Part shown: in pieces, positions 47,815 to 48,681 of the stretch
Numbering within the stretch: position 1 is the first letter of the stretch
How the letters are laid out: every line of letters starts with the position of its first letter
Assembly (NCBI GenBank): GCA_945881945.1
Contig: CAMCVO010000002.1
Location: 1-64,000 of the forward strand
Direction: 5' to 3'
DNA: 64,000 nt
From: Bifidobacterium breve
GTDB lineage: Bacteria > Actinomycetota > Actinomycetes > Nanopelagicales > Nanopelagicaceae
Translations under genes and position numbers: made by a program
Notes under the pieces: model-generated
Told to the model about the DNA's origin: nothing
Databases searched by the model: none
The model's input: only the letters and a program-made list of their open reading frames with translations

Positions 47815-48681
47815 ATGTTACCGCCACGTTTAAGCAGAAGATCGCGCAGGAAGGCTGGGGAGAGTGCGGTTAAGGCAAGACAAGAACGGGCAAAGGTTAA
47901 AGAATTAGTTATGAACGGTGAGCTCTTCTTTTTTGATCTATTTGAGGATGAACGTAACTCAGTCAAGCGTATGAAACTAATGGATCTACTACATTCTGTG
48001 CCTGGGATTGGCAAAGTGCGTGCAGAAATAATTATGGGTAAAGCTCAGATCTCACCATCACGTAGAATTGGCGGTGTTGGTAAACGCCAACTTGAGACTT
48101 TACGACAGGAGTTTTTATTGATTAAAAACTCACGAAGAAGTGGAAAGCTTTTAGTTGTATCAGGTCCAAGTGGTGTGGGAAAAAGCACCCTGACAAATCG
48201 AATGCGTGGCGATGAGCGTTTTTGGATTTCAGTCTCAGTAACTACTCGAAGCATGCGCACAGGTGAGGTAGATGGTGTGGATTATCACTTCGTATCTGAT
48301 GCAATCTTTGATGAGATGATAAAAAAAGAGGAGTTTCTTGAGTGGGCAAGTTTTGCCGGCGCAAAATACGGTACACCTCGCAGGGATGTTGAAGCAGCAC
48401 TTCAATTGGGCAAAAATGTAATTTTGGAGATTGAACTCAATGGGGCAAGGCAGGTTAGGAAAAACTCTAAGGATGCTGTCTTAATATTTATTGAGCCCCC
48501 TTCTTGGGAGGAATTGACTGCTCGATTGGTAAAAAGGGGCACAGAGTCAGTTGATTCAACGCAGGCTAGGTTAGATAGGGCCAAAGAGGAGCTCTCTGCT
48601 GCGTCAGAGTTTGATTATGTCGTGGTAAATCACCAAGTAGATGAATCAGTGGCCCAACTGGTATCTTTAGCCCTTCGCTAA
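47815..48681 (+). CDS. gmk: Fused actinobacterial integration host factor (mIHF) and guanylate kinase
   Basis: A single 288-residue ORF. Residues 1-100 match mIHF: basic helix [20 protein letters not shown], then [20 protein letters not shown] (55-74) and [15 protein letters not shown] (82-96), which bind DNA. Residues 109-288 are guanylate kinase (GMP to GDP): P-loop [10 protein letters not shown] (116-125), [17 protein letters not shown], and [12 protein letters not shown]. Most actinobacteria encode these as adjacent separate genes. An AGGAG plus in-frame TTG at the junction could also give a separate 187-residue kinase. It follows pyrF, so purine and pyrimidine nucleotide synthesis share a transcript with a nucleoid protein. 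Confidence 0.9.
48107..48120 (+). promoter_or_regulatory. Possible internal ribosome site and TTG start for stand-alone Gmk
   Basis: AGGAG at 48107-48111, six bases, then TTG at 48118-48120 (codon 102, in frame). Initiation here would give a 187-residue protein starting [16 protein letters not shown], the normal size and N-terminus of guanylate kinase. Confidence 0.5.

Follow-up and report, generated by a model that had tools for sequence, protein, structure and literature searches.

A conserved putative internal start in an mIHF-guanylate kinase fusion gene of Nanopelagicaceae

The fused gene and its setting

In the window, i.e. the whole stretch of 64,000 nucleotides that was analysed, the locus has the gene order carA, carB, pyrK, pyrD, pyrF, mIHF-Gmk, rpoZ, coaBC, metK, priA, def, fmt, with the neighbouring genes named from their translations. 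The gene between pyrF and rpoZ is a single open reading frame (ORF) joining an actinobacterial IHF (mIHF/sIHF) domain to a guanylate kinase (Gmk). Its ATG is separated from the pyrF stop by 2 nt and has a weak Shine-Dalgarno (SD) sequence, with a duplex score of −2.4 kcal/mol. The features are as follows.

47815..48681, + strand: mIHF-Gmk fusion ORF, 288 aa, ATG start (uninterrupted open frame)
47824..48114, + strand: mIHF/sIHF domain, residues 4-100 (NF041260, PF22525, PDB sequence matches)
47953-48114, + strand: H2TH part of the mIHF domain (Pfam H2TH_5)
48107..48111, + strand: AGGAG, Shine-Dalgarno-like, including codon 99 GAG (SD duplex score and conservation of codon 99)
48115..48141, + strand: junction or linker, residues 101-109, right behind the native mIHF C-terminus (..REF) (alignment)
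48118..48120, + strand: TTG, codon 102, putative internal start codon six bases after AGGAG (conservation tests)
48118..48681, + strand: free Gmk of 187 aa predicted to start at the internal TTG (conservation tests)
48142..48669, + strand: guanylate kinase domain, residues 110-285 (TIGR03263, PF00625)

Both domains are complete and exceed curated cut-offs, which bears out the uninterrupted mIHF-Gmk fusion proposed in an earlier note. The first part matches NCBIfam actino_IHF (NF041260) with 84.1 bits against a cut-off of 60 over residues 4-100, and Pfam H2TH_5 (PF22525) with 59.4 bits against a cut-off of 27 over residues 47-100. Sequence matches to solved mIHF/sIHF proteins extend from residue 2 or 4 to residue 100, e.g. 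Streptomyces coelicolor SCO1480 (4itq, E = 5e-15) and an mIHF (6tob, E = 3e-12); 6bek was also matched. This part is predicted to be a DNA-binding and compacting domain. It resembles mIHF/sIHF (NF041260; Rv1388, SCO1480) in having the whole domain and in its operon place directly before gmk, but the window protein has no stop after the domain and runs on into Gmk. Only one protein of the window genome exceeds the H2TH_5 cut-off, namely the fusion, and no other mIHF was found; an HU-type protein is also encoded in that genome. The mIHF of Mycobacterium tuberculosis is an essential protein that ranks in the top ten by abundance; because of polarity, gmk and rpoZ had to be supplied for its deletion (PMC6155035). 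Codons 81-87 (about 48055-48075), in the ISPSRR region of the mIHF part, show raised synonymous conservation in genera g1 and g37 (z about 4).

The second part matches NCBIfam guanyl_kin (TIGR03263) with 227.7 bits against a cut-off of 160.45 over residues 110-285 (profile positions 1-177 of 180), and is above the cut-off of Pfam Guanylate_kin (PF00625) over residues 110-283. In structure matches it is 46-47% identical to M. tuberculosis Gmk. The P-loop GPSGVGKS begins at residue 117, and S141, T144, R145, R148, Y157, E176, Y185, T187, and E205 are invariant in an alignment of 27 relatives; by analogy with yeast Gmk, we take these residues to be the GMP-binding site. The window gene is therefore like Gmk (TIGR03263; Rv1389, PDB 1s4q/1znw) in its whole domain and in the invariant nucleotide-site residues of its relatives, and unlike it in that the long form carries an N-terminal nucleoid-protein domain. 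The window genome (86% complete) has a single guanylate kinase above the cut-off, again the fusion, and the complete genomes of g1, the genus of the window, have one match each. With these single matches, the fusion gene must supply both functions, and GMP kinase activity is predicted for it as the sole Gmk found in the window genome and the complete g1 relatives.

Two further observations concern the gmk part. Its P-loop (window 48160-48186) differs by lineage, being SGPSGVGKS in g1, SGPGGVGKS in most other Nanopelagicaceae, and AGPTAVGKG in Microbacteriaceae, Arthrobacter, and Rothia. Near its 3' end (48656-48667), the stretch CTGG-TATCTT (TATCCT or TAGCCT in relatives) is, in every Nanopelagicaceae genus tested, the part of the gene with the highest synonymous conservation (z 5-7), and Microbacteriaceae have GTAGACTTGA at roughly this position. 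The stretch resembles an extended −10 element and is perhaps a promoter for rpoZ embedded in the gene.

In the alignment, the mIHF part ends in its native C-terminus (..REF) and Gmk is joined to it without an insert. An AlphaFold2 model built from 32 sequences has two confident domains (mean pLDDT 89.8, pTM 0.62) and a weak joint (pLDDT about 62 at residues 101-110). The linker varies in length and sequence among relatives, with no residue conserved in the manner of a protease site.

Distribution and history of the fusion

The fused or split state was read directly from the tblastn frame. A survey of Nanopelagicaceae gave a match in 271 of 296 genomes, including all 108 that are more than 90% complete. 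The two parts are fused in genera g1, g7, g37, g6, g11, g13, g2, g3, g4, g8, and g40 and split in g5, g9, g10, g12, g38, and g39, in some cases by a single in-frame stop. Four apparently split cases in fused genera (G064, G071, G075, and G144) proved to be contig breaks. Public MAGs titled "Streptomycetaceae bacterium" and "Bifidobacterium breve" (L222, L229) carry a Nanopelagicaceae-type fusion and are probably mislabelled.

The earlier note had suspected related fusions in other small-genome actinobacteria. Many Nanopelagicaceae do have them, but the fusion is not limited to such organisms: it was present in every Microbacteriaceae genome read, i.e. in Leifsonia, Agreia, Naasia, Subtercola, Frigoribacterium, Glaciihabitans, Pseudoclavibacter, Agromyces, Cryobacterium, Planctomonas, Homoserinimonas, Protaetiibacter, Microbacterium, Yonghaparkia, and Frondihabitans. 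From near-identical junctions, e.g. that of L097 compared with the Cryobacterium locus L261, we infer that the group coded f36 is also Microbacteriaceae. The genus f34g99, of another family, is fused as well. The Microbacteriaceae fusions share with the window gene the domain order and the single uninterrupted ORF; they differ in their separate position in the tree and in having no junction SD and start. The fusion itself is thus not rare, occurring in many sequenced genera, and the new part is the form with two starts. We found no paper on an mIHF-Gmk fusion in the literature searched, whose coverage leaves out most subscription journals.

A stop lies between the adjacent genes in Streptomyces, Kitasatospora, Rothia, Arthrobacter, Pseudarthrobacter, and Tessaracoccus; in Streptomyces, Rothia, Arthrobacter, and part of g39 the stop separating the two parts is in-frame. 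Adjacent mihF-like and gmk genes with an in-frame stop between them were also seen in three MAGs labelled Coriobacteriales, Nitriliruptorales, and Thermoleophilia (L248, L269, and L285), which suggests an ancient origin of this pairing within Actinomycetota.

In a tree of six concatenated proteins, the state changes five times between fused and split, and at least four of these changes are forced by well-supported branches; gains and losses of the fusion fit this tree alike. The fused groups are Microbacteriaceae, f34g99, clade A (g2, g3, g4, and g40), clade B (g1, g6, g7, g11, g13, and g37), and g8. In the simplest history, the stop of mihF would have been lost in an operon with adjacent mihF and gmk. 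Clade B would then have retained the ribosome-binding site and start of gmk itself, which clade A would have either lost or never needed.

The start codon at the junction

The earlier note had pointed to AGGAG followed six bases later by TTG at codon 102, giving a Gmk of 187 residues, and this arrangement is confirmed in the sequence. The internal TTG has an SD duplex score of −6.6 kcal/mol, compared with −2.4 for the ATG of the ORF, and a score as low is reached by only 2.8% of 965 in-frame internal NTG codons in the window. The mean SD-energy profile along the gene does not single out the junction, the GG-rich P-loop codons giving equally strong SD-like windows. As such a profile is uninformative alone, we used codon-level tests.

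These tests covered 76 genomes of clade B (g1, g7, g37, g6, and g11), and all 76 have TTG, GTG, or ATG inside codons 100-103. Residue 102 shifts among Leu, Val, and Met in this set while NTG stays. The start is TTG at 102 or ATG at 103 in g1, TTG or GTG at 102 in g37 (23/23), and ATG, GTG, or TTG somewhere in codons 100-103 in g7 (28/28). Among the g1 species, TTG102 is found in 10 of 10 without ATG103 and in 1 of 11 with it. The junction start is also present in 4/4 clade-B genomes outside the counts; the single g13 genome, which belongs to clade B, is without it.

Taking the expected count from the codon usage of each gene, the clade-B genomes without ATG at codons 100-103 have TTG or GTG there in 40 of 40 cases against 16.6 expected (P = 1.8e-16); thinned to below 85% identity, the figures are 29 of 29 against 12.1 (P = 4e-12), both P values treating as independent genomes that are not fully so. 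Within genera, synonymous codon identity has a median of 37-45%, i.e. synonymous sites are largely randomised, so that common descent alone would have blurred the junction pattern. At codon 102, TTG:CTG is 34:1 compared with 403:274 elsewhere, and GTG to other Val codons is 17:3 compared with 279:1146. At codon 99, which forms part of the SD, GAG:GAA is 71:5 compared with 1019:907 elsewhere.

In a control scan of 786 four-codon windows from pyrD, pyrF, the fusion, rpoZ, and coaBC, the junction alone reaches 100% and has the four highest z-scores (10.7 to 7.3), compared with at most 5.2 elsewhere. A five-codon scan of synonymous conservation ranks the junction 5th of 279 in g37, 14th in g1, and 12th in g7; the only moderate ranks in g1 and g7 reflect the movement of the start site between codons. 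The strength of the junction SD in g37 is modest. Taken together, the comparisons give strong evidence that the putative internal start codon and its SD are under nucleotide-level selection in g1, g7, g37, g6, and g11.

The earlier note had asked whether relatives retain the junction SD and start. This holds for g1 and four sister genera (start codon in 76/76, GAG:GAA at codon 99 71:5), but most other fused lineages are without them. Clade A, f34g99, and Microbacteriaceae show no start-codon or SD bias of the clade-B type at the junction, and most of their junctions have no start at a proper distance from an SD. In g40 (Ca. Planktophila), codon 99 is unbiased (GAG 30, GAA 25), and 38 of 55 genomes have ATG at codon 101, right behind EF and about 3 nt from GAG; a related pair (L201 and L214) has TTG at this position. 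The ATG may be a weak or relic start. At one column, each of the five g8 genomes carries GTG or ATG, which is only suggestive of an internal start. Since sister clade A and Microbacteriaceae carry the fusion without an evident internal start, a free Gmk is not generally needed; in the lineages with a single gmk match, the tethered Gmk suffices. Dual products, as predicted from these junctions, are not a general property of mIHF-Gmk fusions.

Probable products of the fused gene

We consider it quite probable that one mRNA of the window gene gives two proteins, the full mIHF-Gmk and a free Gmk of 187 aa, and that this arose by loss of the mihF stop with the gmk start being kept. Ribosomes coming from pyrF would start at 47815, probably by translational coupling, and make the full protein, whose synthesis is required as the only mIHF found is part of it. 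A second initiation at 48118, on the TTG six bases behind AGGAG, would yield a free Gmk of the usual length. The long product would supply both mIHF and a DNA-tethered Gmk. Use of the TTG by ribosomes and activity of both products are presumed here, and the free form may allow kinase dosage to be set independently of the DNA-bound form. Given that mIHF is one of the most abundant M. tuberculosis proteins, extra kinase would seem unneeded on dosage grounds alone.

One alternative is that mIHF-Gmk is the single product and that the junction SD and TTG are coincidental codon usage. A single product is likely for clade A (g40, g3, g4), f34g99, and Microbacteriaceae, with codon 99 unbiased in g40 and mostly no start at SD spacing, but for the window gene this alternative is unlikely, as its clade has kept the start codon and SD far above the expectation from amino acids and codon usage. 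Equally improbable is a protease that cuts the long protein at the linker into separate mIHF and Gmk, leaving no functional fusion. The short linker, of low confidence in the model and variable in length and sequence, would suit such a cut; however, with cleavage the conserved internal start would be superfluous, and the linker lacks the conserved residue expected of a protease site.

The junction could also be an SD-like ribosome-pausing signal that aids separate folding of the domains rather than a start site. Its location right on the boundary of the domains and the conservation of the SD-like GAG agree with pausing, which we nevertheless regard as very improbable, since pausing needs no start codon, yet TTG outnumbers CTG 34:1, NTG stays while Leu, Val, and Met interchange, and the site shifts within codons 100-103. 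Finally, an assembly or sequencing artefact concealing a stop or frameshift, a concern of the earlier note that gains some weight from the fact that most of the genomes are metagenome assemblies and from the real in-frame stop of Streptomyces, Rothia, Arthrobacter, and part of g39, is refuted by an open junction in about 150 fused Nanopelagicaceae relatives, some of them complete genomes, including single-contig g1 and g40 genomes, and in many Microbacteriaceae isolate genomes.

The probable dual-product gene can be compared with bacterial genes whose in-frame internal starts give pairs of N-terminal proteoforms (PMC11005335, PMC9094748). It shares with them the single ORF, the SD with a downstream in-frame start, and the C-terminal product. 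It differs in that the predicted short product is a complete essential enzyme and that the pair stems from the fusion of two genes still separate in relatives.

A wider idea is that the fusion tethers the sole GMP kinase to the chromosome and so ties the supply of guanine nucleotides or its (p)ppGpp control to the state of the nucleoid, that clades differ in the free cytosolic pool kept via the internal start, and that the repeated fusion is adaptive convergence. Inhibition of Gmk by (p)ppGpp is known in several phyla and depends on dimer contacts (PMC6783271). We regard this idea as doubtful, and a chromatin-bound, (p)ppGpp-linked role of the kinase is speculation.

In summary, one gene pair is found in every state, i.e. 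separate, in-frame with a stop, fused with a kept putative internal start, and fused without one. With this series, both the course of gene fusion, step by step, and the selection acting on internal starts become open to direct test. Should the two products be confirmed, one form of an essential enzyme is being overlooked by standard annotation in bacteria that are among the most abundant in freshwater, and there would be a physical link between a nucleoid protein and a nucleotide kinase.
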